This document shows, piece after piece, positions 1,158 to 54,088 of a DNA stretch of 54,266 bases. The notes under the pieces were generated by a model. The model saw nothing but the letters and a program-made list of their open reading frames with translations. It was not told the DNA's origin and did not search any database. A program made the position numbers and the translations under genes. The number at the start of each line of letters is the position of its first letter. Position 1 is the first letter of the stretch. This DNA comes from a virus: IMG/VR virus record IMGVR_UViG_3300010354_007082, positions 1 to 54,266 of that record; one strand, 5' to 3'.

Positions 1158-2279
1158 TTACTTACTGCTTGGAACCTTACCCTCTACACCTTCTATAAAG
1201 AAGTTAATCTTACCCTTCCATGCATCATCACCAACTTGGTCTTTTTCTAGTACAACTTTACCTGTGTTGTCTTTGATTGGACCCACAAATACATTAAATG
1301 TTCCTGCTTTTAGACCTGATTTTACTTCTTCAACTTTTTTCTTTGCTGAATCACTAACTACATCATTAATCTTAATCAAGTCATTAGCACCCTCTTTAGT
1401 ACCCCACTTAGTATCCGCAGTTTTCCATGTATTGTTTAATACATCGTTTACTGCTTTCTCATAATATGGTCCCCAATTAACAACTGCTGATCCCAAATGT
1501 GCCTTAGGAGCAAACGCACTCATATCACTATCCCAACCAAAAGCATACTTACCATTCTTTTCAGCGGTTTGTAATACTGCTGTACTATCTGTATTCTGTA
1601 ACAGTACATCTGCCTTTTGATTAATCAATGCTTGTGCTGCTTCACTTTCTTTTGGTGGATCGAACCAAGTATTAACCCATACAACTTTTGTAGTTACTTT
1701 AGGATTTACACTGCGCGCTCCTAAGGTGAATGCGTTAATATTACGCAATACTTCAGGGATAGGGAAACTACCTACAAAACCAATTGTATTTGTTTTAGTC
1801 ATAGTACCAGCTACAATACCTGCCAAGTAAGCATCTTCATAAAACTTTGCTTCATAGACACGTAAGTTTTCACTTGTTTTATAACCAGTAGCATGTTCAA
1901 ACTTAACATCAGGATGATCCTTAGCTACTTTTTCCATAGCATCACCAAAACCAAATGATGTAGCAAAAATCAATTTATGACCTTGTGACACTAGGTCACG
2001 GATAACACGTTCTGCGTCAGCTCCTTCAGGTACTTTTTCTACAAAAGTAGTTTTGATTTTATCACCAAATTTACTTTCAATATGTTTACGACCATTATCA
2101 TGGGCAAATGTCCAACCAGCATCTCCAACTGGCCCAACATAAATAAATCCAACTTTTAACTGCTCTGCTGCTTTTGCTGGTTCAACAGGTTTATCTTCTT
2201 TCTTACTACAGCCTGCCAATCCTAATACAGTAAATCCAGCCATTACTATACGCAATAAATTCCTTTTATTAAATGTCAT
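1158..2279 (-). CDS. BMP-family (PnrA/Med-type) substrate-binding lipoprotein
   Basis: A 373-residue protein with a lipoprotein signal: basic start, hydrophobic core, and lipobox L-A-G-C with Cys24; Ser follows Cys, so outer-leaflet or outer-membrane sorting is possible. The mature part matches the basic membrane protein family of ABC-transporter substrate-binding proteins: VGFIYVGPVGDAGWTFAHD, FEHATGYKT, GSFPIPEVLRNINAFTLG, LLQNTDSTAVL, FGWDSDMSAF, and GSAVVNWGPYY. Known members bind purine nucleosides. No transporter permease or ATPase is nearby, so it would need host partners. A strong AGAGGAA ribosome site lies about 7 bases before the ATG, and the gene is the last of the long operon, followed by a terminator. 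It looks like a host gene taken up by the phage. Ligand is inferred from family only. Confidence 0.93.
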   Translation of the reverse strand: MTFNKRNLLRIVMAGFTVLGLAGCSKKEDKPVEPAKAAEQLKVGFIYVGPVGDAGWTFAHDNGRKHIESKFGDKIKTTFVEKVPEGADAERVIRDLVSQGHKLIFATSFGFGDAMEKVAKDHPDVKFEHATGYKTSENLRVYEAKFYEDAYLAGIVAGTMTKTNTIGFVGSFPIPEVLRNINAFTLGARSVNPKVTTKVVWVNTWFDPPKESEAAQALINQKADVLLQNTDSTAVLQTAEKNGKYAFGWDSDMSAFAPKAHLGSAVVNWGPYYEKAVNDVLNNTWKTADTKWGTKEGANDLIKINDVVSDSAKKKVEEVKSGLKAGTFNVFVGPIKDNTGKVVLEKDQVGDDAWKGKINFFIEGVEGKVPSSK

Positions 2280-2300: not shown

Positions 2301-5300
2301 TTATTTAATGTTACCGTATTTGTTATAAAAATATTGTTTACACCATGGCCAATCATAGCTGAGTTTAAGTTTATCGATATCACCATTTACATTATTATAG
2401 TATTCTACTCCATCATTAGCACCTTTAGTACTATATTCAGCAAAGTTACCCTCGGCTTTTTCACACCAAATATCCAATCTTAACTTATCAACAGGCAATT
2501 CACTAGCACTAAGTTTTATAGTTTCACGAAACGATGTACGCCATGTACTGAATTCGTCAGTGTTAAACATAGCTATACCTGAATTAATTCTACAAACTTC
2601 ATGCTCACTATCAAGGGTAAAATCTAATCCTACACCCGAGTTACCTAACACTAATTTTTTATTATAAGCAATCATTGCTTGATGACCATATACTAACCCA
2701 TTAACTGGATTCAATGCGTGAAATATATAATGTTTAGGCTTTTGTAATCTATCAGGTTGCCAACTAAAATCAAACTTTGGATTAATCTTTAATTTAGCAA
2801 ATACTGTAAACATCCATGGAGTATTACTAGCAATAGCAGCAGCATGGTATGATTTAACTCTACCATTTACACCGTCAACTCTTATTACTCTATTATCTAA
2901 ATGTTTAGTATGTTCTATCAAATATTCATAATGCTCGTCAGCTAGTTTTTCGCCATTACTTAAAAATACAATGTCTAATGGTCTGCTACCTACACAAGTC
3001 TTACTTGTTATAATATATGGGTAATCATATAGTTCATCCTTGACATAACTTACTACATCATATGGGATAATACAATTACTTGCCCCAATACTATTAATAA
3101 TAATATTTCTGTCCTGAACTGTCCAAAAACTCATTGGTTCATCTATTTTTACTTTTGTGTCGGCATTATCTATCGTTACAAAATTAATGTATGGAAAGTT
3201 AAATTCACTATTAACAGAATCTACCATTGTATCACTATCAAGCGTAACTATAGGACATTCTACTCTACGTGTTCTAAAGGTTTCGTTAAAATTAATTTTA
3301 TCAAATTTTGATAAATCATCCAAGTCTTTTAACAAATTTAAATTAACAAATATCGTATCGCCATATTTTTGTTTATCACATGGAAATGTATGTAATTGGT
3401 CTATTGCGAATGGATCCACGACATAGGTAAAATCAAAATCAGTATAATCACTCAGTGTACTTACTATCCATACAAAATTATCTGTTTTTGTTTCTTCAAT
3501 AAGTGGTAACAATGTTTGATATAAGTCAACACAATAACGTAGTGTATGTTTTACTTTATTACTTGTTTTATTATTAATATTATCAAAAAAAGCATTTATA
3601 TTTGTATTGCCAAAATCAATAACAATAACATCATATAGACAATTTGTAATAGCTGCCCTACGTGTTTTTACATGATTAATATTAGGCAGATGCTCAATAA
3701 TTTTTATATATTTGGTATCTTCTTCAAACTTTTCACAGTTAACTAGATATGTTGTGCCCCAGTGATTCCATTGTGTACCAAATACATTTACCATACTCAT
3801 TTGCCATGGATTAGGATAATAATTAAAGTCAAAATTAGTATAATCTAATTCGCTATTCAATATCCAACACAATTCTGTTTGTGACTTTTTGGTACATCTA
3901 ACAATAGTATCTACCCAAGTATTTAAAAACCGTGTGCGTTGTATGTTTGGATACAATTCTTTAAGTTTGCTAAAACGTTCTGAACTTTCCTTATTCCCAC
4001 GATCAACAAAAAACATATCAGGTTTTTTGAACGATTGTACTAGAAATTCTTCAGTAATTTGTGTATCATGTTCAACAAAATTAATTAACTTATGGCCTTT
4101 AGCAATCATCTTGCCGTTAACAAGATATGTACATGTTAATTCGCTTTCTGGACTACCAAACGCATTGATATGATAACTGTTATCTTTGTTAGGTCTCCAA
4201 CTAAAATCAAAGTTATCGTAATTTAAATTGCTACGACATGCCCAAAATAACTCATTCTTATGTTTTTCAATAAGTTCATCTAATGAGTTATCAATGTAAT
4301 ATCTAGGAATATCAGTTGGATTAATTTCCTTGCGTAGTATTTTAATAACAGTTCCATCATTACCGGGCGTTATATATCTTGGTCCATCATTCTCATCAGT
4401 TGTAGTACCAAATTGATATATGTATGGTGGACTAGTTCCATCAGGATGCCAACTAAAATCAAAATTGTCTACACGAATATTTTCAGGAATTTCCCAGTGC
4501 TCATTACTTGGTAATACTTCTGCTATAATATCTTCGACATATTTTATTACAGTAGCATCTTTGACAACATACCTTGGCCCATGTGTTTTAGCCCATTGTG
4601 TTCCAAATTGGTATATGTAAGGATCATCATTTGGGTTTGGTATCCAGCTGTAATCAAATTTTTTGACTAAACGTGTGTTTTCAAAATGTTCAGGTCTTTG
4701 CTTTATTGTAGCTATAACATCATGAACATACTTTATTGTTGTGCCTTTTTTATTAACATATTTTACAGTAGGCATAACTTCAGGACCATACCATTGATTT
4801 CCAAACACATACGTCATTGGTGGGTCATATGGATCGGGTACCCAACTATAATCAAATTCTATATCAGTAATTAATTTTTCAAATAAATCGGGTTTATGTT
4901 TAAGTTTTACTGTTATATCATTTATGTATTTTTTATCAGTTGCTCCCTCGACAACATACTGTAATGTGGGCATTTTTTCAGCACTATATTGTGTATTTCC
5001 AAACACATAGATAAATTTTGGTTCCCATGGATCAGGTCTCCAGCTAAAATCAAAACTATCTTCATCAACATCATGTAATAAAAACCAACGATCCCATTCA
5101 GGTTTAACTGGAACATCATCAGTCATGTATTTACGTTGACTACTACCAGGCACATGGTATTCTAGTGTGGGGGTTATAGCACCTGGTATGTATTTATTAC
5201 CCCATGTATATATAAAAGCAGGTTCACGTGGATCAGGTCTCCAAGACAAATCAAAGTTTTCATTATCAACTTGCTGAACCTGTACCATGTATTTGCTCGG

Positions 5301-5816
5301 CAATAATTCAACAATATTATCCATGTACTTTACTTGAGTTGCCCCTGGAACTACATATTCTAATACATGTTGTAATTCATTTGGATAATATTTACAGCCC
5401 CAACGATAGATAAAACTTGGTTCGGTAGGATCAGGATGCCAACTGAAATCAAATTTATTTGTGTCAACATCTTCATAAAACTTCCAGTTACTTGTAATAC
5501 TTACAATGCGGTATACAGGTGTTACATCATTTCTATAAATTTTATATTGTTCATTGGTATTATTTGAAACAAGCCAAGTTCCACTATCTTTTTGATGTTG
5601 ACTAGGCCATATGTTAATATGGTTAATTGCCCACATATCTTCGTCACGTAAACTATCAAAATTAAAATCAAAATCAAAATTAGAATAGTCACAAAACTCG
5701 TTTATTATCCAAAAGTGTTCCGTAGTGGCTAGGCTTTTCGCATGTTCAAAGTCACTAGCCTTACGTTCAGTTGGGTAAACATTAGGTTTTGCCCCGTAAT
5801 AAAATACATCTCTCAT
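2301..5816 (-). CDS. FDFSW-repeat protein with a degenerate C-terminal glycosyltransferase-like domain
   Basis: An 1171-residue protein with about eleven copies of a unit centred on FDFSW-x-PDP followed by I-Y-x-FG, at residues near 47, 122, 188, 255, 321, 387, 452, 536, 662, 793 and 1015. Copies 122-452 are evenly spaced at 65-67 residues. The C-terminal part (about 946-1100) resembles the glycosyltransferase-like protein at 16137-17093: D-I-V-F-LS, RVDGV-x-G, H-AA-x-A-S, FDF, then N-x-V-N-G-L-x-YG and DF-x-LDS. At the place where that protein has DGDN, a likely metal-binding DxD, this one has no DxD. It may thus be a binding or scaffold protein grown by internal duplication from an enzyme. 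No signal peptide or membrane segment is seen. It sits between the carbamoyltransferase and BMP genes, 24 and 21 bases away. Confidence 0.7.
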   Translation of the reverse strand: MRDVFYYGAKPNVYPTERKASDFEHAKSLATTEHFWIINEFCDYSNFDFDFNFDSLRDEDMWAINHINIWPSQHQKDSGTWLVSNNTNEQYKIYRNDVTPVYRIVSITSNWKFYEDVDTNKFDFSWHPDPTEPSFIYRWGCKYYPNELQHVLEYVVPGATQVKYMDNIVELLPSKYMVQVQQVDNENFDLSWRPDPREPAFIYTWGNKYIPGAITPTLEYHVPGSSQRKYMTDDVPVKPEWDRWFLLHDVDEDSFDFSWRPDPWEPKFIYVFGNTQYSAEKMPTLQYVVEGATDKKYINDITVKLKHKPDLFEKLITDIEFDYSWVPDPYDPPMTYVFGNQWYGPEVMPTVKYVNKKGTTIKYVHDVIATIKQRPEHFENTRLVKKFDYSWIPNPNDDPYIYQFGTQWAKTHGPRYVVKDATVIKYVEDIIAEVLPSNEHWEIPENIRVDNFDFSWHPDGTSPPYIYQFGTTTDENDGPRYITPGNDGTVIKILRKEINPTDIPRYYIDNSLDELIEKHKNELFWACRSNLNYDNFDFSWRPNKDNSYHINAFGSPESELTCTYLVNGKMIAKGHKLINFVEHDTQITEEFLVQSFKKPDMFFVDRGNKESSERFSKLKELYPNIQRTRFLNTWVDTIVRCTKKSQTELCWILNSELDYTNFDFNYYPNPWQMSMVNVFGTQWNHWGTTYLVNCEKFEEDTKYIKIIEHLPNINHVKTRRAAITNCLYDVIVIDFGNTNINAFFDNINNKTSNKVKHTLRYCVDLYQTLLPLIEETKTDNFVWIVSTLSDYTDFDFTYVVDPFAIDQLHTFPCDKQKYGDTIFVNLNLLKDLDDLSKFDKINFNETFRTRRVECPIVTLDSDTMVDSVNSEFNFPYINFVTIDNADTKVKIDEPMSFWTVQDRNIIINSIGASNCIIPYDVVSYVKDELYDYPYIITSKTCVGSRPLDIVFLSNGEKLADEHYEYLIEHTKHLDNRVIRVDGVNGRVKSYHAAAIASNTPWMFTVFAKLKINPKFDFSWQPDRLQKPKHYIFHALNPVNGLVYGHQAMIAYNKKLVLGNSGVGLDFTLDSEHEVCRINSGIAMFNTDEFSTWRTSFRETIKLSASELPVDKLRLDIWCEKAEGNFAEYSTKGANDGVEYYNNVNGDIDKLKLSYDWPWCKQYFYNKYGNIK
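4317..5519 (-). repeat. Six regular ~66-residue (198-bp) coding repeats
   Basis: Within the repeat protein, residues about 100-500 hold six consecutive units with motif FD(F/L/Y)SW, then PDP or PNP, then IY-x-(F/W)G, then (P)TL-x-Y-VV-x-GAT and KY-x-x-D. The central motifs start at residues 122, 188, 255, 321, 387 and 452. Units are clearly diverged at the DNA level, so they are old duplications under protein-level selection. Confidence 0.85.
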
Positions 5817-5840: not shown

Positions 5841-7331
5841 TTAATTTTCATACCCTGTTAGAACTTTAGTTTTATAAAAACTTTCAAATCTTTTCGCATC
5901 TTCAACATCATTAACCATTGGTTCCCCTCTTATGTTAAGTGATGTGTTTAATAACATAGGGCAATTTGTTTTTTCATACCATGCTTCAAGTAGTTTTCTA
6001 ATATTAGAATTATCTTTGGGCACAGTTTGAACACGACTTGTTCCATCGTAATGTGTAATGGCAGGAAATTTTTCAGGATAGGAACATTTTGCTATGACCT
6101 GCATATATCTACTATTAGTCCAATTTTTAGGCATAACAAAATATTCATTAACAAATTCTTCAAGAATCACAGGAGCAAAAGGTCTGAATTTTTGCCTACG
6201 TTTTATTTCATTTACTTTATCTTTTATTTCATTACCTCTAGGATCAGCAAGTAAACTACGATTACCTAAGGCCCTTGGACCAAACTCAGCACGTCCGTTA
6301 GCTACTCCTACAATTTTATTAGTTTCTAATTCATTAATAATTTTATTAATAGGATATGCTGCTACAATGTCTTTTCCAAGAAAAGCATTTTGCCAATTTA
6401 ATCTTTTTCCATAACCCAAAGCACAAGCCCCTAAACTAGAACCAGCATCTCCTGGATTTGGCATAATCCAAATATCATTAAAATATTTACCCAACAGTCT
6501 GTTAGCCAAACAATTTAAAGCAACTCCGCCCATATAAACAAGGTTAGAACTTTTACCAATAATATTGGCTTTTGAAATTATTTTTTCTATACATATTTCT
6601 GTTAACAATTGAGCACTTGATGCTATATCCATTTCATTAGCATCTTGTAAAAATTCTCGCTCGATACCTGCGTGTAAATTTTCCTTAAAATCTAATGTAT
6701 CTTCATCTAAAAATCTATTAATCATAGCATTAGTATGTATAGGATTACCATATGCTACCATACCCATTAAAATATATTCTTCATCTAATGGTTTTAACCC
6801 TACATGTTTTGTCATAGCACTATAAAATAATCCAATACTATTTGGATATTTTTTACTATATAATTTTTTATATTTGGCATATCCATTATTATCGTAGCTA
6901 GCGTCCCATATAGTTATTGTATCAAATTCTCCAATAGCATCAATTACTACAATAGTTGCGTCACTAAAATTACTTGTTTGAAAACCGGCGGCAGCGTGGC
7001 TTAAATGATGATTATGTGTGCGTATTTTATCAGTACCAATTAAATTAATAATTTCGTTACCAATCCGTTGTTTGGTACTACTAAAATCAATAGATTGACC
7101 TGCTCTAATTTGTCTTAATTGAGTTAACAATGGACGCTCATAATAATCAATAACTTTAATTTTATCAGTTTTGTAGTTTAGAGCGTCTAGCAAAATATCA
7201 ACATTAAGTTCTTTATCATGTTTTAATTTACTATATCGCTCAGTATGACCTGCGAACAATATATTTCCTTGGTTGTCAACCAACGATATACTAGCATCAT
7301 GAAAGTTATTACTAATACCTAAATAGTTCAT
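5841..7331 (-). CDS. NodU/CmcH-family carbamoyltransferase
   Basis: A 496-residue protein of the usual family length class (slightly short). It starts YLGISNNFHDASISLVDN, the typical N-terminal ASKHA-fold strand. It has the HNHHLSHAAAGF element (His108, His109, His112) of the Kae1/TobZ-like carbamoyl-adenylate part, and the C-terminal YrdC-like signature GRAEFGPRALGNRS at 346-359. These enzymes transfer a carbamoyl group from carbamoyl phosphate through carbamoyl-AMP to a hydroxyl on a sugar or other small molecule. In a cluster with glycosyltransferases and sugar-activation enzymes the likely acceptor is a glycan sugar. Its ATG overlaps the stop of a 37-residue gene (ATGA), indicating translational coupling. 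Acceptor unknown. Confidence 0.92.
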   Translation of the reverse strand: MNYLGISNNFHDASISLVDNQGNILFAGHTERYSKLKHDKELNVDILLDALNYKTDKIKVIDYYERPLLTQLRQIRAGQSIDFSSTKQRIGNEIINLIGTDKIRTHNHHLSHAAAGFQTSNFSDATIVVIDAIGEFDTITIWDASYDNNGYAKYKKLYSKKYPNSIGLFYSAMTKHVGLKPLDEEYILMGMVAYGNPIHTNAMINRFLDEDTLDFKENLHAGIEREFLQDANEMDIASSAQLLTEICIEKIISKANIIGKSSNLVYMGGVALNCLANRLLGKYFNDIWIMPNPGDAGSSLGACALGYGKRLNWQNAFLGKDIVAAYPINKIINELETNKIVGVANGRAEFGPRALGNRSLLADPRGNEIKDKVNEIKRRQKFRPFAPVILEEFVNEYFVMPKNWTNSRYMQVIAKCSYPEKFPAITHYDGTSRVQTVPKDNSNIRKLLEAWYEKTNCPMLLNTSLNIRGEPMVNDVEDAKRFESFYKTKVLTGYEN

Positions 7332-7441
7332 TTGTAAATATATGGGTCTTGTTCTTTCATTTTCTTAAGGCGTTGTCTAAACTTATACTCACGTATAATT
7401 TTTCCTATTGTAAAATGATATAATCTTCTAAACAAATTCAT
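7328..7441 (-). CDS. 37-residue basic protein coupled to the carbamoyltransferase
   Basis: ATG at 7441 gives MNLFRRLYHFTIGKIIREYK, then FRQRLKKMKEQDPYIYK and a TGA that overlaps the ATG of the carbamoyltransferase gene (ATGA). Its start overlaps the end of the GatZ-like gene by 14 bases. The protein is strongly basic, mostly helix-forming, and ends with DPYIYK. The tight overlap on both sides is the main support, since a 97-base gap would otherwise stand out in an operon with almost none. It may be a small partner or translation-coupling peptide. I do not recognise the family. Confidence 0.6.
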   Translation of the reverse strand: MNLFRRLYHFTIGKIIREYKFRQRLKKMKEQDPYIYK

Positions 7442-8450
7442 GGTTCATAGCCCCTAACCTATATTGATCCAGTTCTAAAATTAATATTTCACGCATGGTT
7501 TTTGTAAGTTGCTCGTTGTCAATCGCTCTATGAAGTTGAATACCCAATTTTGAATTAAAGAAATAATGTGCGCTTACTAAAAACTTAGTTTCGTCATCTA
7601 TAACTTCACTCGTAATCCACTTGTTATAATATTTTTGCGACAATACAAAATTAACAAAAAGATCATAATACTCTTTAGCTTGAGTTGAGCATTCACGTAA
7701 TGCTTTTGTATGTATCATACCTAACTGTGGAGCGATATTAAAACAATCTACTCCTGCGTCTAACCTTAAATTAACTTCTCTCGCATGTAGGTAATCAGCA
7801 TTATGTTCTTTAAATAAAAGATTGTTATTGTGTACTAATTCAGTAATTTTTGTTGTAGTATAATTATCAAAATTTCCCACTTGCTTGTGTTTGGTAAGAC
7901 TTCCCGTTTTGGCAACGAAATATTTAAGATTTGGTTTATATTGGTTTAAAAATGACATTTGGTTGTGGTAATAAGAAAAATCACCATTCGTATTACCGTT
8001 GTTATCCTCACTCCCGTATTCAAACATAACATTAGGATTATGTCTCAGGGCAAAGTTAAACAATCGTTCAGCAACTTGTATTTGCTCATTTTGTTCTACT
8101 CTGCTAACATCAATATGTAATAAATCAAAACCATTGTAAGTATCTGTTTGAATTGTGCCAAAACAACGATTTAGTGCTTGTTCTAAATCTAAACCAACAT
8201 CTTTATCACTAAAGTATGGACCACAATGGTCACGGCAAATTAACACATTTTCTTTTACATAATTTTTGTTATTTTTAATAAATTTTACAAGATTTGGTGT
8301 GCTAAAGGCATAACCACCATCATAATCAACTTGATTTCTGCTTGAAATAATTAATAAAGGAAAATCATTCTTAAAACTATATTCTAAACATAAATCTGTA
8401 ACTATAGGACTCATAGGTCCAACACCTAATTTAAATTTTTTCAAGTCCAT
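7428..8450 (-). CDS. GatZ/KbaZ-like (tagatose-bisphosphate aldolase subunit-like) TIM-barrel protein
   Basis: A 340-residue protein that lines up with the GatZ/KbaZ family: S-S-R-NQVDYDGGY at 36-47 (family NQVN..GGYTG), RDHCGP at 73-78 (family GDHLGPN), HIDVS at 112-116 (family HLDAS), KEHNADYLHAR at 214-224 (family EAHSTDY), NIAPQLG at 238-244 (family KVGPALT), and a C-terminal YRLGAM. GatZ and KbaZ were described as non-catalytic partners of class II tagatose-bisphosphate aldolases; no GatY/KbaY partner is present here. In this setting it may be a stand-alone lyase or aldolase for an unusual sugar. It overlaps its KdsC-like neighbour by 20 bases. Family assignment is good; reaction is unknown. 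Confidence 0.75.
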   Translation of the reverse strand: MDLKKFKLGVGPMSPIVTDLCLEYSFKNDFPLLIISSRNQVDYDGGYAFSTPNLVKFIKNNKNYVKENVLICRDHCGPYFSDKDVGLDLEQALNRCFGTIQTDTYNGFDLLHIDVSRVEQNEQIQVAERLFNFALRHNPNVMFEYGSEDNNGNTNGDFSYYHNQMSFLNQYKPNLKYFVAKTGSLTKHKQVGNFDNYTTTKITELVHNNNLLFKEHNADYLHAREVNLRLDAGVDCFNIAPQLGMIHTKALRECSTQAKEYYDLFVNFVLSQKYYNKWITSEVIDDETKFLVSAHYFFNSKLGIQLHRAIDNEQLTKTMREILILELDQYRLGAMNHEFV

Positions 8451-8913
8451 TAATTACCCTTTCCAAATAGATACACGCATCTAATACTGCCCCACTGCCC
8501 GCATCACTTGGTGTAACATATTTAGCAGCTTTTTTTGCTTCTATTCTAGCAGTGTTAGGAGCTATACCAACCTTTACCTTTGATAATATGGGAGCGTCAT
8601 TATACCCATCTGCTATAAAAGCTGTAGTTTCTAAATCACAGTTATCGTAGAACCACTGTAATCTTTCTTCTTCACGCACTAAAATTAATTGATCTGGTCT
8701 ATATTTCCAATCTCTTACAATTCTACAATACGTAATATCCCATCCAGTCTCGTCGGCAGTTATAAACGTAATATCTTTAAGATATTTGGTAATTATTTTA
8801 AAACCATCTTTGTCATGTGGCCCAAAAACTTTAAAGGTTTTTCCATACTTGTTATATAAAATATGTCCAGTATTTAAAACTCCATCAACATCTAACACTA
8901 ATTTTTTAATCAT
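8431..8913 (-). CDS. KdsC-like HAD phosphatase
   Basis: A 160-residue, cap-less HAD protein of the KDO-8-phosphate phosphatase class, with the usual length for that class. DVDGV at 8-12 supplies the nucleophile Asp8 and acid/base Asp10; the flanking VLNTG and later KDGFKI fit KdsC and the NeuA phosphatase domain; ITADE occupies the motif II region at 51-55; ADGYNDAP at 101-108 is motif IV binding magnesium. The family removes phosphate from an eight- or nine-carbon sugar acid or similar compound. No KDO or sialic acid synthase or CMP-transferase is nearby, so the substrate is probably the product of an adjacent enzyme such as the GatZ-like protein. It overlaps both neighbours (4 and 20 bases). 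Confidence 0.85.
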   Translation of the reverse strand: MIKKLVLDVDGVLNTGHILYNKYGKTFKVFGPHDKDGFKIITKYLKDITFITADETGWDITYCRIVRDWKYRPDQLILVREEERLQWFYDNCDLETTAFIADGYNDAPILSKVKVGIAPNTARIEAKKAAKYVTPSDAGSGAVLDACIYLERVINGLEKI

Positions 8914-9629
8914 TTTTCTAAATAAAATTTGTCATACACTTTTGTATCTATGTCAATATCTGTATATAATTTGAATTGTTTTATAAATTGTTGTTTATAA
9001 AATACCTGCCCACTAACATAATTTATATTACGTGCCTGATCAGTAAGCTTGTTTGGATTAATAGACATATCAATAACGCATTTTACTCTATCGGACAAAT
9101 GTTTAAATGGACTTATATTTTCTATGGTTCCCAATCCTGTACAATTAATAACTACATCAAACTCTGAATGTCTTTGTTCCCAGTTGTTCAAACTTCTGCT
9201 GAATACTGATAGATTAACATATTTATTTGCTGTCAGGAAGGTTATAAACATTCTTCCTATTGACCCATTGCCCAAAATACACACATTACTGAAGCTGTTT
9301 ATATTATTACAAACATAAGCTACACCAAAAACATCGGCATTATAACCATGTAGTTTACCAGTTTTATTTATAATAGTATTACAAGACATATAATCTGTCA
9401 CACTTTTATCAACGTAGTCTAACTCTTTGATAACCAAACTTTTAAAAGGCATACTAATTGATATGCCCTCATACTTTTTTTTAGCTTCTAATAAATCCTT
9501 TTGTATATTTTGAATTGACGAACTTTTGGGCATATAAACACTATCGCAATTATAATAGTTAAAAAACTTATTATAAAAATACTTACCCTGTGTTCCTGGA
9601 TTTGAACTATAGCTCACATATGTTTTCAT
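8910..9629 (-). CDS. AroE-like shikimate/quinate dehydrogenase-family protein
   Basis: A 239-residue protein, slightly shorter than AroE (about 270). SMPFK at 59-63 matches the family V-T-x-P-x-K with catalytic Lys63; CNTI at 83-86 matches the NT motif; GYNADVFG at 95-102 matches GxNTDxxG with Asp99 kept and Thr changed to Ala; ILGNGSIGRM at 118-127 is the nucleotide-binding glycine loop. Key catalytic residues are thus present, while the C-terminal region is weakly conserved. Within a glycan cluster it is unlikely to serve aromatic amino acid synthesis and may reduce or oxidise a cyclic or keto-sugar intermediate. It overlaps both neighbours by 4 bases. Confidence 0.82.
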   Translation of the reverse strand: MKTYVSYSSNPGTQGKYFYNKFFNYYNCDSVYMPKSSSIQNIQKDLLEAKKKYEGISISMPFKSLVIKELDYVDKSVTDYMSCNTIINKTGKLHGYNADVFGVAYVCNNINSFSNVCILGNGSIGRMFITFLTANKYVNLSVFSRSLNNWEQRHSEFDVVINCTGLGTIENISPFKHLSDRVKCVIDMSINPNKLTDQARNINYVSGQVFYKQQFIKQFKLYTDIDIDTKVYDKFYLEK

Positions 9630-9955
9630 CTTTTAAAAGCATGTATAGAATAGATTTTTCCATCTTTAAAAGTAATTACGTCAACTACATTTAAAAAGGT
9701 TGATTGTCCGTTTACAATAATATTGATTAATAACTCTGAAAAAACGGTTTGATCTTCACAGGCATTCTGTAATATAGTAACTTTAACACTGTCAACCTTA
9801 TCAAATATTTGTTTATTTGCTTCTAATACTTTATCACGACCTGATACATTATTGTCCCAATCAATTAATTGTACATTAGGATGAAACATTTTCTCTAATC
9901 CTAACAAATCTTTGTTGCTAAATTTATTAAAATATTGTTCAACTTTATTTTTCAC
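9626..9955 (-). CDS. NTF2/SnoaL-like small protein
   Basis: A 109-residue protein with the NTF2-like cone-fold pattern: N-terminal helices ending in LEKMFHPNVQLIDW, then G-R-D-K-V, and C-terminal strands VDVITFKDGKIYSIHAFKR. The start is GTG at 9955, sharing one base with the upstream TAG stop; a strong GAGGAA ribosome site lies just upstream and supports GTG rather than the later ATG at codon 23. Members act as isomerases, dehydratases, hydrolases or simple binding proteins. Its place between the nucleotidyltransferase/kinase and the AroE-like gene suggests a step in the same pathway; the reaction is unknown. Confidence 0.75.
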   Translation of the reverse strand: MKNKVEQYFNKFSNKDLLGLEKMFHPNVQLIDWDNNVSGRDKVLEANKQIFDKVDSVKVTILQNACEDQTVFSELLINIIVNGQSTFLNVVDVITFKDGKIYSIHAFKR

Positions 9956-11478
9956 TATTGTTCCTCAAATAACTTTATACCTAAATACCAAAGTAATAAA
10001 TCAAAGTCAGGAGTATGTAAGGGAGCCATATTCCAAAATATGATCGGCACTAACAATTTTGTTTTTTTAACACTATAATTTTTACTAATTAAAAAATCCT
10101 CAACTATTTTAATATATTGTTCGTAGTTTTGAATATGAGGAATGGTTAATTTAACATGACCATTATTGTACTCATATTGAAAGTTGTTGTTTTTTACTTC
10201 ACTGTAATTAATTATAAATCCACCCAATAATTTAGCAAAATCATAATATATGTCGCCAACCTCAACTAATCCAGCAAATTCATGTCTCCAATCAATTATT
10301 TTAAAATGTTGCGAACTGTCTATAATAATATTATCAAATTGTAAATCCCCGTGTATGAAACCAGGCATGTTTATATTTTCAAGCATATCCCAATCAATAT
10401 TATTTAAGTAATAATAGTATGGTTTAACAGGAATATTGTTAACAGTGTGGGCATTGCCTATATTTGGATACTTTTTTAAAAATAAGTTAACACGTTGTAA
10501 TGTTTTTTCTTTATAAAACTTTTTACAATAGCTATCCAAAGATATATTTTTTTTATTCCAAACTTTGCTATCAAACCAATTTAATAAATTTAGAAGTATA
10601 TCTACGGAGTAATTTTTATAAACAACCTCGCCTTCAAAGTAATCATATACCAGCCATTGCCCAATATTGTTTACATTATTAGGAAATATATTAGTGTTGA
10701 GTTTTGTTTTTTCATATTTTTTCTTTGGTATGGATTCGTCCAAAAACCACTTGATAACTTTATTACTAGTAAAATAAGTAATTTCGTCAGTTTTGGTAAA
10801 ATCGTATTTTTGTGTTTTTTTTACTTCACTATTATATATTTCTAAATTACCAAAATCTTTCCAAGAATTTAAATTAACTTGATTAGTGTCTTTTTCTATA
10901 GCAAATACAATTTCATTACTCTGTGAGGATGACAATCTATGTTTAAAATTAACATAATCTTTGATAAACATAACACCAGTAAATGCTTCCCAATCCATAG
11001 TCTGTTGTATCTTAAACGTCATGTCCTTTACTTTGTTGTTTTGAATTTTAAACATTGTGTAGTGTTCAGACATTTCAGTTGGAACATTTTTTGTAAAAAC
11101 AGTATCGTGCTTTAAGTTAAAACTAGTTAAATCTTCATTATAATATGTATCACAAGGTATATACCAAAATTCACTATTCAAAATATCAAAACACTTACTT
11201 ATTGTATAACCTGGGCCCGATTTTTCACTAACGTAATCATCGATTATAACAAATTTTATTTTTAAAAAAGGATAAACTAACTTACAATAATCAATAACTT
11301 GTTGTGATTGATATCCAATTGGAATTATAAATTGTGTATCTGTAGGAAAACTTTCTATAATATGTGAAAGTATGGGTTTATTTTTATAAGGAATTAATGA
11401 TTTGTTTAAAAATTGAGTAAGTTTTCCTAACCTACTACCCAATCCTGCAGTTGGTATGACTACTGTATTTTTATTCAT
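9955..11478 (-). CDS. Fused sugar-type nucleotidyltransferase and APH/choline-kinase-like kinase
   Basis: A 507-residue two-domain protein counted from ATG 11478, chosen because VVIPTAGLGSRLG follows directly and the start overlaps the upstream stop by 8 bases. The N-terminal half (about 1-235) is a nucleotidyltransferase: GLGSRLG at 12-18, Lys26 of the signature, and YIPCD at 106-110 for metal binding. The C-terminal half (about 270-507) is an aminoglycoside/choline kinase-like domain: HGDLQFDN at 376-383 and IDWR at 395-398, the catalytic and magnesium-binding motifs. The fusion suggests sequential phosphorylation and nucleotide activation of one substrate, as in LicA/LicC (choline) or AmgK/MurU (amino sugars). 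Substrate is unknown. Confidence 0.85.
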   Translation of the reverse strand: MNKNTVVIPTAGLGSRLGKLTQFLNKSLIPYKNKPILSHIIESFPTDTQFIIPIGYQSQQVIDYCKLVYPFLKIKFVIIDDYVSEKSGPGYTISKCFDILNSEFWYIPCDTYYNEDLTSFNLKHDTVFTKNVPTEMSEHYTMFKIQNNKVKDMTFKIQQTMDWEAFTGVMFIKDYVNFKHRLSSSQSNEIVFAIEKDTNQVNLNSWKDFGNLEIYNSEVKKTQKYDFTKTDEITYFTSNKVIKWFLDESIPKKKYEKTKLNTNIFPNNVNNIGQWLVYDYFEGEVVYKNYSVDILLNLLNWFDSKVWNKKNISLDSYCKKFYKEKTLQRVNLFLKKYPNIGNAHTVNNIPVKPYYYYLNNIDWDMLENINMPGFIHGDLQFDNIIIDSSQHFKIIDWRHEFAGLVEVGDIYYDFAKLLGGFIINYSEVKNNNFQYEYNNGHVKLTIPHIQNYEQYIKIVEDFLISKNYSVKKTKLLVPIIFWNMAPLHTPDFDLLLWYLGIKLFEEQ

Positions 11479-11908
11479 GTTCACTAGATATTTTACCGTG
11501 TGTTCTTCCTTGATCGTCCTGTAGTCTAAAAACATCATCTAATTCAGGGGTGCTTGCTTCCATAAACTCTAAATCTGTGATAGCAACAACTCTATGTACA
11601 TAATTAGGAAAAACATTAAATATCACACCAGGCATCAAGTCAACTATGTCCATTGATTTTTCATAATCATTGACTTGTTCATTTGACATACCTTTGGTTA
11701 AAAAAGTATTGATGTTAAAAACATCCCTACTTATGTAAAGTTTACCTGAGCCACTTAAAACATAATTTGTTTCTGTTTTAAATTGATGAACTTGTAAACT
11801 TGTTCTATTTCCTGCTAAAAACAAAATTCTTTTTAATGCGTATGGAGTTTTAATTCCGTCGGCTATCCAAAGTTCCTGTCCCCAATGTTTTTTAACAACT
11901 TTTGTCAT
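11471..11908 (-). CDS. Mannose-6-phosphate isomerase type II-like cupin
   Basis: A 145-residue single cupin. ATG 11908 is chosen over an upstream in-frame ATG at 11926 because AAAGG lies about 6 bases before it and it then avoids overlap with the upstream gene. Features match the C-terminal cupin of ManC/AlgA-type proteins: HWGQELW near the start, SLQVHQFKTETNYVLSGSG (cupin motif 1), VFPNYVHRV (motif 2) and ASTPELDDVFRLQDDQGR at the end. In such proteins the cupin isomerises or binds a phosphosugar. Here the nucleotidyltransferase is in the next gene rather than fused. Its stop overlaps that gene by 8 bases. Confidence 0.85.
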   Translation of the reverse strand: MTKVVKKHWGQELWIADGIKTPYALKRILFLAGNRTSLQVHQFKTETNYVLSGSGKLYISRDVFNINTFLTKGMSNEQVNDYEKSMDIVDLMPGVIFNVFPNYVHRVVAITDLEFMEASTPELDDVFRLQDDQGRTHGKISSEHE

Positions 11909-11918
11909 AAAATTACCT

Positions 11919-12677
11919 TTAATCATTATATATCAATCTTTCACACAACCAATTTAAACTATAACCTGATTTTGTCTGATACCAAAGATGGCTTAATTGT
12001 TTTATACTTTCATAGTCATTTAGATAATAATTTCTAGATATGCTTCTCAAAATAAAAATATCACTTATTGGTGTGATATGTTTAATGTTTGTAAAAAATT
12101 CTTTGAAAATATTTGCTAAATGGACATGTATATTGCTATGATCGGATATTGTTTGAATGTCTTGGTCGATGTTTTTAAGTTTTAACATCTCTTTGTATTT
12201 TCCAATTAATATCACATCTTGCATATGAAAACCATTACGTAGATTTTCATTACTTTGTCCTATATAACCATATATACAATTATCTTCTATCTCATCTAAA
12301 AATTTATCCCACAAAGTTAAATCGTTTTTGAATACTAAATCAGGTCTTAATAGAATAACAACATCATAAAGTATATTGCTTTTTAACATTAAATCTAATA
12401 CGCTATGCCAACGATTTAACATAAGCTTATTAGTAAAAAGGTAGTCAACGTCATTTTTATTATCAATTTTACTATCAAAACAAAGTAAAACATCATTAAT
12501 TTTTTCCGTTGTAATTTTTTCTGAAAGATTAATGTTTAACTTTTCGTTATACTCTGTTGAAATATCCCAAGTACTAAAATAGTAATGAACATAATCTGAA
12601 AGTTTATTAAACTCCCAGTATTTGTAAGCTCTATCGAATTCTCGATACTCTCCAGCTATTAATACTGCTATCTTCAT
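11919..12677 (-). CDS. Glycosyltransferase-like protein of the KIAV-L-x-GE/QPR family
   Basis: A 252-residue protein beginning MKIAVLIAGEYREFDRAYKY and containing VHYYFSTWDIS and VVILLRPDLVF. The layout matches the protein at 13402-14208 (KIAVCLSGQPR, YYFCHAWDYN, FVIKSRYDLVF), so the two are paralogues. Proteins of this type occur in capsule and surface-glycan loci and in phages and are usually annotated as glycosyltransferase-like; the R-x-D-L element is the likely nucleotide-sugar or metal site. No signal peptide or membrane segment. It overlaps its upstream neighbour by 4 bases. Donor and acceptor cannot be read. Confidence 0.6.
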   Translation of the reverse strand: MKIAVLIAGEYREFDRAYKYWEFNKLSDYVHYYFSTWDISTEYNEKLNINLSEKITTEKINDVLLCFDSKIDNKNDVDYLFTNKLMLNRWHSVLDLMLKSNILYDVVILLRPDLVFKNDLTLWDKFLDEIEDNCIYGYIGQSNENLRNGFHMQDVILIGKYKEMLKLKNIDQDIQTISDHSNIHVHLANIFKEFFTNIKHITPISDIFILRSISRNYYLNDYESIKQLSHLWYQTKSGYSLNWLCERLIYND

Positions 12678-13405
12678 AAATCCACATTAGATAACAAATT
12701 ATTATTACTTATATAGTCTAATAAACGTTCTGCCCAAGCATTATGTCCTTCAATAAGAGGATGATGATTTGGGCCACGTGGGAATTTGTTTCTATCAGAA
12801 AACATACTAAATGAATCGTTAACTATAAATCTGGGAGTCAATCGTTGATTAAGAATATAGCTGGGTACATGTTTTATCTGGTCATCAAAAATAGTTTTAT
12901 AATGAAATGAATAAGTTAAAAGATAAGGGATTTTGTGTTGCCTTAAAAAATTCTGTATGCCCAAAATCATTAATTGATCAAATTCATGTTCACTTTTATC
13001 ACTTGAAAAACTTTTTACCATAAGCTCCCATAGTTTATGTTCATCTGTATAGTCAGGTGGTTCATGTGTAAGCATGTGAACATAATACTTATTACGTTCA
13101 CTATTAAAAAATTCTCTGCGTAAACAATGTGTTATACTTACGTTGACAAAAATTTCACTAGGATCATAGTTTGTAAGTGCTTCACTAATGTTCTCTACTA
13201 ATTTTCTATAAGCACGTTGATTACTACCTCCAGGAAGTGCGGTGTTTTTATAGTTAAGATACCCCAATTTATCGGACATGATTCCACTATAACAATGTTT
13301 ACGTTGAAAGTTACTAAAATAATAAAGATTTCCTGGTTCTCTTGGACCGTCTAATTCTTGTCCAAAAGCATAACTGTCGCCTGTAACGTAAAATAACTTG
13401 GTCAT
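12674..13405 (-). CDS. SGNH/GDSL-type hydrolase-like protein
   Basis: A 243-residue protein. GDSYAFG at 9-15 carries the candidate nucleophile Ser11; ALPGGSNQR (about 56-64) fits the Gly/Asn oxyanion blocks; and PNHHPLIEGHNAWAERLLDY near the end fits the terminal block with the catalytic His. Such enzymes remove or transfer acyl groups on glycans. There is no signal peptide, so a cytoplasmic role on a sugar intermediate, or an acyltransferase-type use, is plausible. It overlaps both neighbours by 4 bases. Family is fairly clear, substrate is not. Confidence 0.75.
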   Translation of the reverse strand: MTKLFYVTGDSYAFGQELDGPREPGNLYYFSNFQRKHCYSGIMSDKLGYLNYKNTALPGGSNQRAYRKLVENISEALTNYDPSEIFVNVSITHCLRREFFNSERNKYYVHMLTHEPPDYTDEHKLWELMVKSFSSDKSEHEFDQLMILGIQNFLRQHKIPYLLTYSFHYKTIFDDQIKHVPSYILNQRLTPRFIVNDSFSMFSDRNKFPRGPNHHPLIEGHNAWAERLLDYISNNNLLSNVDL

Positions 13406-14208
13406 TTATAAATCTCATTATTTAATTGAACTATTTTATCATAGTCATTAACTACATGTAATCCTATTCCATCTTTGTTCACTGCGTCTTTACGGTATAC
13501 ACACTCACTTAACGATTTTGCTGAACGAAAAAATTTAATGTTAGTATGTCTCAAGTATTCACTCATTAGCGTGCCTGGACCTAGAAAATCACAATCTTCA
13601 GGTATATGGTATTTGCGTTCACTTACCATAAACCAATATATGTCACTAATTACATCCATTACTTCACTACTACCATAATATATTACATCACTAATATTTA
13701 CTCTGTCATACTCCATACCCATTCTACCATTATGTGTTCCATAAAAGTCATAAGGTTTTTTATAATCATATGGATCGTTTAGTCTGTAATCTAACTCAAA
13801 TGTATGGTATGGAATAAACACAAGATCATATCTAGATTTAATAACAAAATCAAATTCAAAGTTATGTTCTAACTCATATTCTCTTTTCAAGTAATTTGCT
13901 CTCATTTGACTATAATAAAGTGAGTCCCACGGAATTATATCATTAGGTAAATCTTCTCGTGACTCTATTACAATTTTTTTAGGATTTAATAAATTGGTAA
14001 TTTCTTCTATTAAAACATTTTTTGGTACTACTTCATGTTTCCAACTTAATACATTATCTTCTCGAACCTTGTAGGTATTATAGTCCCAAGCGTGGCAAAA
14101 ATAATAATATGAGTAATTTTCATTGTTCTGAAAAAAATTTAGTGTACTTGGTAACGCATATTTGTACGTGCGAGGTTGACCACTTAAACATACAGCAATT
14201 TTATACAT
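13402..14208 (-). CDS. Glycosyltransferase-like protein, paralogue of the 11919-12677 gene
   Basis: A 268-residue protein starting MYKIAVCLSGQPRTYKYALP. It shares with its paralogue the early KIAV-x-x-x-G-x-x-R motif, a YYFCHAWDYN strand, and FVIKSRYDLVFIP, a likely catalytic or donor-binding element. It is a cytosolic-looking protein without membrane segments. The neighbours are an unknown 167-residue protein upstream and an SGNH hydrolase downstream (4-base overlap). Family-level glycosyltransferase assignment is from resemblance to proteins of surface-glycan loci; specificity is unknown. Confidence 0.62.
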   Translation of the reverse strand: MYKIAVCLSGQPRTYKYALPSTLNFFQNNENYSYYYFCHAWDYNTYKVREDNVLSWKHEVVPKNVLIEEITNLLNPKKIVIESREDLPNDIIPWDSLYYSQMRANYLKREYELEHNFEFDFVIKSRYDLVFIPYHTFELDYRLNDPYDYKKPYDFYGTHNGRMGMEYDRVNISDVIYYGSSEVMDVISDIYWFMVSERKYHIPEDCDFLGPGTLMSEYLRHTNIKFFRSAKSLSECVYRKDAVNKDGIGLHVVNDYDKIVQLNNEIYK

Positions 14209-14714: not shown

Positions 14715-16165
14715 GTATATTCACACTGTTTATAAAAATCAACAAATTCAGGAAAATAATCAACAAACTTGGTATTGTTTCTACGATCATATTCACTGTA
14801 AAACAAATAAAAGTCTTTCATAGCTGTTTGTAAATTAAAATCTATAGGTCCATTTATCCAATCTATAAGTCTTTGAATCTTACTTATTTCAAAGTCATAA
14901 AATCCCTTAAACAAATTGTCTTTTGTTCTTTGATTATTCTCCATAAATTCTTTTGTTTTATAAAGTTCAGGTAAAAAATCTTTGTTAATTTTAGCGTTAA
15001 GCCATATTGGGTATTCAAGTTGTGGCATATCAAACCAAACCAGCTGGCGGTCTGTATTGTATTTAAATCTTAAATCTAAAATGTTTTTAATATATTCGTA
15101 GAAACCAACATAACTTAACACATTAAAGGTAATAATAAAAGTCAAACTATGAGCAGAACCTTCACTTAAATATTGATTTATATTTTTATATAATAAATTA
15201 AAGTCCATTCCATTTCTTATATACTCAGCTTGCTTGCCCCAACTATCAAGACTACAAAACAACATAAAATGCTCAAAAGAATCTGTGCTAGTCATATCGT
15301 GAAGGGAAGTCATAAACTTACTCCATTGGTTTCCAGGTGGACAGCAATTGCTTGTTATACTAAGATGTAAATCTTTTTTTGGATTTTTCTTTACATAATC
15401 AAAAATCCTAAAAGTACTTTTATCCATTAATGGTTCGCCACCAGTCATTCTAAATGTTTTTAGTGTGGGATATATTGTAGGGAACCATTCCCAAAAAGCT
15501 AGCAAGTACGGATTATCAGGCCCATTTTGTGGCCACATATTAGCATTTTTCATCCATATGGTATCATTGTGTTTTGTATTACTTAATTGATATGGACCGT
15601 TTTTATCTATATCTTTCATCCACTCAGTGCTTAAATGCGGGCTACAATAACTACATTTAAAATTACATGCTTGGTTAAAATTTACTTCAACATACCTAGG
15701 GCGAGCGTTCCCAACATAACCTAATTTAAGTGCTTCTTTGATTATTCCTTCTTCATAGATATCATTACTACGATAAGCTCTATCACTTAGTTGTTCTCCG
15801 CTGTCCTCTATTCTCCAACAAAATTCACATTCATTTGGACGAACTCCATCCAACATTAATTTTCTTTGTTCTTTTTTATATTTTGTATTATGTAAAGCAC
15901 TTACATCTATTTCAATTTCTTGTAAAGGTATATGATGACTGCGTGGATGATAACAGCTATGTGTTTGACCTGTAGGAATATGTATACTTACATTAAACCA
16001 CTTAGCCAAACAAAAACTTGGGCTAACCTCATTTAACTTTTCAAATACTTTTTTTGTGTTGTGACCATAGTAACTTTCAAATTGGTCATTATTTACAACT
16101 GATTCATTACCTTTCGTACCCTGTATTTCTGACAATTTACCATCCTTCAATTTGGCGTATAACAT
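14711..16165 (-). CDS. Twitch/SPASM-type radical SAM protein
   Basis: A 484-residue protein. The SAM-binding iron-sulfur cluster motif C-x3-C-x2-C is at Cys167, Cys171 and Cys174 (QACNFKCSYC), with MTGGEPL at 240-246 as the GGEP motif. Ahead of it, Cys71 and the pair Cys113/Cys116 (NECEFCW) look like an N-terminal twitch-type auxiliary-cluster region, as in a common phage family of twitch-domain radical SAM proteins. Substrates of this phage family are not established; modification of a peptide, sugar or cofactor is possible. The start overlaps the upstream gene by 29 bases, with AAAGAG as ribosome site; no better start exists before codon 104. Confidence 0.85.
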   Translation of the reverse strand: MLYAKLKDGKLSEIQGTKGNESVVNNDQFESYYGHNTKKVFEKLNEVSPSFCLAKWFNVSIHIPTGQTHSCYHPRSHHIPLQEIEIDVSALHNTKYKKEQRKLMLDGVRPNECEFCWRIEDSGEQLSDRAYRSNDIYEEGIIKEALKLGYVGNARPRYVEVNFNQACNFKCSYCSPHLSTEWMKDIDKNGPYQLSNTKHNDTIWMKNANMWPQNGPDNPYLLAFWEWFPTIYPTLKTFRMTGGEPLMDKSTFRIFDYVKKNPKKDLHLSITSNCCPPGNQWSKFMTSLHDMTSTDSFEHFMLFCSLDSWGKQAEYIRNGMDFNLLYKNINQYLSEGSAHSLTFIITFNVLSYVGFYEYIKNILDLRFKYNTDRQLVWFDMPQLEYPIWLNAKINKDFLPELYKTKEFMENNQRTKDNLFKGFYDFEISKIQRLIDWINGPIDFNLQTAMKDFYLFYSEYDRRNNTKFVDYFPEFVDFYKQCEYT

Positions 16166-17093
16166 CCATCTCTTTAACTAACAATCCTTTGTTATACTTA
16201 TCTGCACCATAATGACGTTTAAAGAATTTACTTTGCTCAATATTAAACATACACATAGGTAATCCTAACTTATCGTGTAATTCTATACCAATCTGTTCTG
16301 ACATTTCTGTAGGATCTTTTTCCTTACAATGTTCATCCCATAATTTAGGATAATTATCAAACCACTGTACATTATTTGGATCCCAATCAGTTAACATAGT
16401 TAGATATGTACCTAATCTCGCTCCATATATCGCCCATATTCCGTTATCCACATCTGTCCCAACATTTTGCCATATAGTAAGATTGTTAAGATTTCTACTT
16501 GCCACACTTGTTTTAAACTCATCAATGTTTGGTACACGTCCACCATGTAATACCATTTTTACGCCTTCACGAAATCCAGCACGCCATGCTTGAAAACTTG
16601 TATAGTTTGGATATGTAATACTATAACAATCAGCCATAGCCCAGTAAATATTATCTCTACTATCTAAACAAAAATCTACTGTGGTTGTGCGGTTTCCATC
16701 ACTATGTTCATGCGTTTTCATATTAGCAACATAAGTTTTAGTCCAACTACTCATACCACCATTGCCATATCGTAATCCATTAATATGATTAATTGCTTTC
16801 CAACGATATTGTGCTATTTTATAAACAGGATCTTTACCACGAAAATCAAACTGCCCATTAAAGAATTCAGGATGTGGCATGTTATCACCGTCAATCAATA
16901 TAAAACGTTCAGTATCACTTGCTTCTCCTGCTGCTTTATGAGCAGCATCACTACCTTTTACACCATCAACACGCTTTGCCCATGGCACCATGTTTTTTAT
17001 TTTTAACCAAAATTCTTCTTTTTGTGGTTCATCATAGCTTAGATAGATACAATCTAAGTCAGCAATATCTATAATATCAAGTTCTGTACTCAT
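16137..17093 (-). CDS. Glycosyltransferase-like protein with DGDN motif
   Basis: A 318-residue protein. DCIYLSYDEP at 14-23 starts the fold, KRVDGVKGSDAAH at 40-52 and ILIDGDNMP at 65-73 follow, the latter giving a DxD metal and nucleotide-sugar site (Asp68, Asp70). Next come QFDF at 81-84, AINHINGLRYGNGG at 100-113, and VDFCLDSRDNIY. The same order occurs in the C-terminal domain of the repeat protein at 2301-5816, where DxD is missing. The family is common in marine and freshwater T4-like phages and is best read as a GT-A-like glycosyltransferase. It overlaps neighbours by 17 and 29 bases. Confidence 0.7.
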   Translation of the reverse strand: MSTELDIIDIADLDCIYLSYDEPQKEEFWLKIKNMVPWAKRVDGVKGSDAAHKAAGEASDTERFILIDGDNMPHPEFFNGQFDFRGKDPVYKIAQYRWKAINHINGLRYGNGGMSSWTKTYVANMKTHEHSDGNRTTTVDFCLDSRDNIYWAMADCYSITYPNYTSFQAWRAGFREGVKMVLHGGRVPNIDEFKTSVASRNLNNLTIWQNVGTDVDNGIWAIYGARLGTYLTMLTDWDPNNVQWFDNYPKLWDEHCKEKDPTEMSEQIGIELHDKLGLPMCMFNIEQSKFFKRHYGADKYNKGLLVKEMDVIRQIEGW

Positions 17094-53097: not shown

Positions 53098-53140
53098 ATA
53101 AATAAAAAAGCACTTTTTTACCCACATTTTACCCTAAATG

Positions 53141-53170
53141 TTGTGCCCTCCGCAACATATGTGTTATAAT
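53141..53170 (+). promoter_or_regulatory. Sigma70-type promoter of the gp55-like gene
   Basis: A perfect TATAAT at 53165-53170 preceded by TGT gives an extended -10 (TGNTATAAT). A weak -35 (TTGTGC, 53141-53146) lies 18 bases upstream. Initiation near 53177 would leave a leader of about 15 bases containing AAAGGA. Host polymerase could thus transcribe the late sigma gene before late genes are on. Confidence 0.7.
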
Positions 53171-53191
53171 ATTTCTAAAATAAAGGATTCT

Positions 53192-54088
53192 ATGAGTACC
53201 ACAAAAAAGCCTGTCAACTACCTTAATAATAGGGACATACTAAAAGAAATACACGAAAGCAAAAACAGTTATTGCTATTATACAAAACAAGAATACCATC
53301 ATTACGATTTAATAGTTGATATGCCTCAAGATACACTTGAGGCTTGTTTTAAATACGCACATAAACGTGATACGATTAAACAAGCAAAAGAAAATCGTGC
53401 CGCTAGATTATCAAACGAAACTGGCACAAAGATTGAACCAAAATCTATTCCAACTACTGATTTAGTATTTCGTGTTATGACTTGGGAACATATCCCACTC
53501 AGTCCAAAACTACAAAAGAAAACAGCAAAGAAAAAAACAGCAATTGATATCATGGAGTTTGATGATATTGATGAAGAAATCTTTGTTGATTTGGAAGACC
53601 CAACCACAGCAGGTGAGGTTGATGATATGGTACATATGAAAGTAAATTTCCCACCATTTCAACATTATAAAATTGATGATGAAGGAAGTTTTTATTGTGT
53701 AGGTAAAAGTCATTGGGTAGGTGGCATTAAGCGTGGTCATTTTAGCAAAGATCATGGAAATCTTACTGATAAACTAGCACGTATGTATATTATGTTATGT
53801 GAAAAATACGCTATGAAGTTTAATTGGCGTGGATATACATATAACGATGAAATGCGTAATTCAGCTATATTACAATTGACTTATGTTGGGTTGCGATTCA
53901 ACGAAGCAAAATCACAAAACCCATTCGCATATTATACAGCAGCAATTACAAATAGTTTTTGCCGTGTATTGAATACAGAAAAGCGTAATCAAAACATTCG
54001 TGATGATATATTAGAAATGAATGGACTTAACCCAAGTTATTCACGCATGAATTCAGGTATACGTGAAAAAGCTTGGTTAGAAGATTAA
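53192..54088 (+). CDS. 55: T4 gp55-like late-transcription sigma factor with a large internal insertion
   Basis: A 298-residue protein from ATG 53192, chosen because AAAGGA lies 4 bases upstream and the TATAAT promoter is just before it. Residues 8-24 (VNYLNNRDILKEIHESK) match the N-terminus of T4 gp55 (YNYVNNKELLQAI). Residues about 190-275 match its sigma region 2-like core: LARMYIMLCEKYAMKFNWRG, YTYNDEMRNSAI, NPFAYYTAAITNSFCRV. T4 gp55 has 185 residues; the extra is mainly residues 26-188, with a Lys-rich then Asp/Glu-rich stretch at 104-150. The C-terminus ends REKAWLED and lacks an obvious SLDFLYE-type clamp-binding motif. Role: directs host core polymerase to late promoters. Confidence 0.9.
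   Translation: MSTTKKPVNYLNNRDILKEIHESKNSYCYYTKQEYHHYDLIVDMPQDTLEACFKYAHKRDTIKQAKENRAARLSNETGTKIEPKSIPTTDLVFRVMTWEHIPLSPKLQKKTAKKKTAIDIMEFDDIDEEIFVDLEDPTTAGEVDDMVHMKVNFPPFQHYKIDDEGSFYCVGKSHWVGGIKRGHFSKDHGNLTDKLARMYIMLCEKYAMKFNWRGYTYNDEMRNSAILQLTYVGLRFNEAKSQNPFAYYTAAITNSFCRVLNTEKRNQNIRDDILEMNGLNPSYSRMNSGIREKAWLED

Follow-up and report, generated by a model that had tools for sequence, protein, structure and literature searches.

A gene of host-operon origin for a substrate-binding protein (SBP) of the BMP/PnrA-like family is carried by a freshwater T4-like phage contig, and its product is probably a purine-base binder that is made late in infection and loads an importer of the host. The contig, an IMG/VR virus record of 54,266 bases analyzed over its whole length, is hereafter referred to as the window. 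In this mechanism, the best supported of those we considered, a host-derived, lipid-anchored periplasmic protein would bind purine bases of the adenine/guanine type. The phage would express it in the late phase, probably from a dedicated TAAATA promoter, and the protein would load the inner-membrane ABC importer of the host, composed of one ATPase and two permeases. Purine uptake would continue or rise during host gene shut-off and phage DNA and RNA synthesis. If true, the infected bacterium may go on taking up precursors for DNA even though its genes are shut down. Phage phosphate-binding proteins are already known; a purine-base binder would extend phage control of the infected cell to the direct uptake of nucleic-acid precursors. 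A search of the open-access literature on phage BMP, nucleoside or purine transport and phage porins revealed no paper on phage BMP.

An intact BMP lipoprotein gene in a T4-like phage

The features of the BMP locus are listed in Table 1. The open reading frame is intact and begins with ATG. Its product matches the Pfam Bmp family (PF02608) with an E-value of 3.5e-61 and a profile score of 207 bits, against a curated cut-off of 24.1, in agreement with the family assignment made in an earlier note on this DNA. No PHROGs family was found for the protein. The same note had called the product a lipoprotein with its own terminator, and both statements hold. A lipobox, LAGC with Cys24 in the window protein, recurs in all relatives of the main phage clade (see below) that have a complete N-terminus, and is absent from the BMP copies of L018 and L020–L022, which belong to two other captures. 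The terminator, with its 10-pair stem, starts 22 nt beyond the stop codon and has the longer stem of the 2 terminator-like sites that a scan of 6 kb gave; 1.9 were expected, so the count by itself carries no weight.

Table 1. Positions of features at the BMP locus and of the late sigma factor gene in the window
Positions	Strand	Feature	Basis
1–155	−	Permuted tmRNA, cut by contig end	Rfam RF04321, 53.1 bits, 3′ truncated
168–740	−	190-aa ORF adjoining tmRNA, no assigned function	ORF call
741–1094	−	117-aa ORF between BMP gene and tmRNA, no assigned function	ORF call
1099–1106	−	TATAAATA, late-promoter-like site, may open next unit	Motif scan
1113–1135	−	Intrinsic terminator 3′ of BMP gene	10-pair stem, 3-nt loop, T-run
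1158–2279	−	BMP/AtzT-type purine-binding lipoprotein (putative binder), 373 aa	Pfam match, AlphaFold model, fold match
1587–2114	−	Stretch with ligand-pocket residues W56, S108, F109, A150, E176, N180, W205, N229, D231	Alignment to AtzT
2208–2279	−	Predicted signal peptide and lipobox LAGC, lipidated Cys24, Ser next	Sequence
2286–2292	−	Shine-Dalgarno-like AGAGGAA	Sequence
2301–5816	−	1171-aa protein with repeated FDFSWRPDP-type units	ORF call
2302–2307	−	Late-promoter-like TAAATA, 28 nt 5′ of ATG	Motif recurrence in subclade
53138–54088	+	gp55-like sigma factor for late transcription	phrog_12791, E 1.8e-72

The window is T4-like, since it carries baseplate wedge and hub genes together with a gp55-like late sigma factor gene; T4 gp23 is present in a 158-kb relative. 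A scan of IMG/VR revealed 22 phage loci with a BMP gene, 18 of which are 83–94% identical to the window BMP across the aligned region (L016, L017 and L023, all among the 18, are partial genes at contig ends). Because L004 and L005 are near-copies, as are L002, L003 and L017, there are fewer distinct phages than loci. The gene is thus phage-borne as had been proposed, and an assembly chimera is excluded, because many independent contigs hold the gene amid phage-type genes. Among GenBank phages, BMP relatives are less than 38% identical and come from unannotated records, nearly all of them from human feces; these records, titled 'Bacteriophage sp.', are MT836531, MT835719 and 12 others.

Host origin, repeated capture and selection

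A maximum-likelihood tree of 102 proteins was built, with the fragment L023 left out. The window protein and 17 others form a single phage clade, the main clade (bootstrap/SH-aLRT 100/97; recovered in 998 of 1000 bootstrap trees). The enclosing clade (100/99) has 39 rows; apart from the phage proteins and three MAGs labelled Anaeromyxobacter, these are Burkholderiales or betaproteobacterial MAGs without closer placement. The nesting in one host clade that the earlier note had suggested looking for is thus observed, with all 18 phage copies placed inside Burkholderiales with a bootstrap of 100. BMP genes nesting among Burkholderiales are found on four MAG contigs that bear the label Anaeromyxobacter or Bordetella parapertussis (L049, L056, L065 and L059); these contigs are possibly misnamed or wrongly binned. 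The BMP of L018, a 167-kb contig, groups with Hydrogenophaga and other Comamonadaceae on a long branch that makes its position less sure, and those of L020–L022 adjoin alphaproteobacterial and other marine copies. Since the main clade, L018 and L020–L022 fall in separate places in the tree, phages appear to have captured the gene at least three times.

Values of dN/dS among phage BMP copies are 0.04–0.15 with dS up to about 1.5. Such low ratios at high dS point to long purifying selection. The gene is nevertheless an accessory one at a variable place, because a phage that is close kin at the tmRNA and the 190-aa gene (90% identical), L112, lacks BMP in the interval from its FDFSW-repeat gene to its tmRNA and in the rest of the 20.6 kb covered. 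This would suit a passenger, i.e. recently acquired host DNA that does nothing for the phage. The dN/dS values already disfavor such a reading, and the age of the clade, the retention of a late-promoter-like motif and the repeated capture also stand against it; we regard it as highly improbable.

The ligand pocket matches that of purine-base binders

The AlphaFold model of the window BMP (pLDDT 87.7) has the two-domain SBP fold, and a fold search with this model returned AtzT (PDB 6pi5) as the best match, at 54% identity and with a TM-score by target of 0.95. AtzT (1.6e-118) and the Brucella BMP lipoprotein 3s99 (50% identity) are its closest relatives of solved structure. While these base binders are 50–54% identical to the window protein, the nucleoside-binding PnrA, BmpD and Lbp are 17–24% identical, although the PnrA and BmpD lipoproteins share its Pfam family and fold. 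AtzT binds guanine with a Kd of 110 nM and adenine with a Kd of 2.5 uM, and Tyr45, Ser97, Phe98, Glu165, Trp194, Asn218 and Asn220 lie around the guanine (PMC6834077). Adenine is modelled in 3s99, as noted in the same paper (PMC6834077).

The nine pocket residues of the window protein correspond, in the order of Table 1, to AtzT Y45, S97, F98, T139, E165, N169, W194, N218 and N220. The pocket architecture is the same: S97, F98, E165, W194 and N218 are kept, the contact differences Y45W and N220D are as in adenine-bound 3s99, and T139A is a second-shell difference. The Brucella protein differs in having His at 218, where main-clade phage copies have Asn, and AtzT in being a bacterial protein with a reported Tat-type signal, compared with the lipobox of the phage-encoded protein. 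Of the 18 phage copies in the main clade, 17 agree at all nine positions, as do 37 bacterial copies; the remaining phage copy, L008, departs solely at second-shell position 139. The pocket is conserved across the three captures. Because the nearest solved relatives bind bases and the pocket matches theirs, the ligand is likely a purine base, and the nucleoside proposed in the earlier note is disfavored. With the three differences from AtzT, the pocket does not fix which base is preferred.

Phage BMP would depend on a host importer

The organization of bacterial loci was examined in the 50 that have 5 kb on both sides of the BMP gene. The gene comes after an ABC ATPase and two permeases in 39 of them, and a purine-catabolism marker (adenosine deaminase, XdhC, XdhA or allantoate hydrolase) is found nearby in 37. 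In contrast, permease PF02653 was detected in none of the 22 phage records, many of which are fragments but which include records of 138, 158 and 167 kb, and no operon partner was found near phage BMP copies except a Rieske oxygenase in two, L010 and L011. Lacking a phage permease, phage BMP, provided that it takes part in transport, must work through an importer of the host; that the putative hosts possess this importer is assumed.

Cyanophages carry pstS, whose product is thought to use host PstABC, and phages without pstS lyse late under low phosphate (PMC10976474). The parallel with PstS drawn in the earlier note stands: in both cases a host-derived periplasmic binding protein is encoded by T4-like phages, the permease being absent from the phage records in the case of BMP and PstS being thought to work with a host membrane transporter. 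Cyanophage PstS was acquired twice, and phage BMP was also captured repeatedly. PstS differs in its phosphate ligand, its protein family and its reported control by PhoBR of the host. Given repeated capture, strong selection and the missing phage permease, the proposed role is testable in one host–phage pair.

Because bacterial operons contain xanthine dehydrogenase genes, which point to purine catabolism, purine brought into the cell may be used for its nitrogen and not reach DNA. Phage BMP could then feed host purine catabolism by the xanthine dehydrogenase route, the phage gaining nitrogen or energy and not bases, as the XdhC/XdhA, allantoate hydrolase and adenosine deaminase genes of these operons and the Rieske gene in L010 and L011, which trails BMP in bacterial operons, would suggest. 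However, the Rieske gene is absent from most phage copies, the other catabolic genes occur in no phage locus, and the identical uptake step serves salvage too, so we consider a catabolic role unlikely and favor base supply.

The Rieske genes (L010, 7563–8522; L011, 1947–2906) join BMP at the exact host junction. They share 99% DNA identity compared with 83% for the adjacent BMP genes, which makes a remnant of the original capture improbable, and their protein is 95% identical to that of the bacterial MAG L025. The Rieske gene seems to have come later than BMP, which suggests recombination with a host operon. HpxD was rejected as a name for it, since NCBIfam gave no match above the cut-off.

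Late-promoter-like signals upstream of the BMP gene

The BMP gene is the last of a same-strand run that starts at the baseplate genes. A TAAATA motif lies 28–37 nt upstream of the BMP ATG in all ten phages of the window's subclade (in L002 with a second copy at −18). Within 50 nt it was present in 10/10 sense and 0/10 antisense regions, with shuffles predicting about 11% each; the ten phages are related and represent fewer than ten independent cases. The window copy overlaps the 3′ end of the upstream 1171-aa gene. In the 158-kb relative G013 the motif is enriched upstream of genes (33 regions, against 14 in antisense). No TAAATA was found within 100 nt upstream of BMP in L009–L013, L018 and L020–L021. 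The late unit described in the earlier note is borne out, and the motif would fit late transcription of BMP by the gp55-like sigma factor.

The longer sequence TATAAATA is depleted in the window (3 found, 16.4 expected), one copy being directly behind the BMP terminator. It was rejected as a marker of the BMP gene, which is marked by the shorter TAAATA instead.

Late expression had been taken as an argument for another role, such as changing the envelope. In T4-like phages DNA replication goes on in the late phase, so late expression is compatible with supply. The two captures without a lipid anchor argue that anchoring or envelope change is not the common selected feature and that ligand binding is what is kept.

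The BMP gene lies in a cargo region

BMP is not a lone gene: it shares its cargo region with a permuted tmRNA, joined in relatives by genes for a porin, AhpC and TerC. Such a tmRNA was detected by Rfam or ARAGORN in 16 of the 22 BMP phage records. This two-piece tmRNA is close to BMP in L004, L006–L008, L014, L015, L019–L021 and L023, that is, in two independent BMP lineages. The contigs of L002, L016, L017 and L022 break off within BMP or shortly behind it, and that of L009 does not reach the position of the tmRNA in its relatives. The Rfam betaproteobacterial model matches several main-clade phages; the alphaproteobacterial model is the better match in L020, L021 and main-clade L011. A two-piece tmRNA is also known from aquatic phages of the Melnitz type, where it is of the alphaproteobacterial type with a glutamine riboswitch (PMC9004378), unlike the mostly betaproteobacterial type found near BMP. 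No riboswitch was found near BMP in the loci searched (L024, L032, L039, L060 and the phage loci).

Porin PF13609 is present in 8 of the 22 records; the window contig is cut before the part where its relatives have it. Gram-negative porins of this family with a signal peptide were seen in L004 (17302–18321), L006, L008, L014, L015 and L019, and also in L112 (12067–12948); the L004 porin had no match in GenBank phages. Near the porin, several records carry genes for AhpC, a TerC-like protein, a CMD-family protein and an FAD-dependent amino-acid-oxidase-like protein, a cluster that lies behind BMP and tmRNA in T4-like phages (L004, 13873–16927, and equivalents). Related BMP loci also encode a glycine-zipper protein and a small secreted protein.

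A tentative and rather doubtful extension of base supply is that freshwater T4-like Burkholderiales phages carry a kit that would rebuild the outer part of the purine-import path, with an outer-membrane porin and a periplasmic base binder, leaving the inner-membrane step to the host and harvesting bases late, perhaps from lysed neighbors. The same porin, glycine-zipper and secreted proteins could instead act with BMP to change the envelope or mask a receptor, for superinfection exclusion or envelope upkeep, ligand binding being incidental; phage PA-2 Lc is a phage-encoded porin that replaces a receptor porin. But the pocket is conserved over three captures, the copies in L018 and L020–L022 have no lipobox, and a protein in the periplasm is ill placed to mask a receptor, which makes an envelope role quite improbable next to purine supply.

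Neither the 117-aa protein nor the FDFSWRPDP-repeat protein had a match in Pfam or PHROG. The repeat gene is directly upstream of BMP in the window and L016, and related repeat genes are upstream of BMP in L004, L005, L014, L015 and L019. A second window gene similar to it is located at 16137–17093 (minus strand). Between the two, at 5841–14208 (minus strand), lies a sugar-type cassette with Nol-like carbamoyltransferase, GatZ/KbaZ-like, HAD phosphatase-like, shikimate-dehydrogenase-like and nucleotidyltransferase-like genes.
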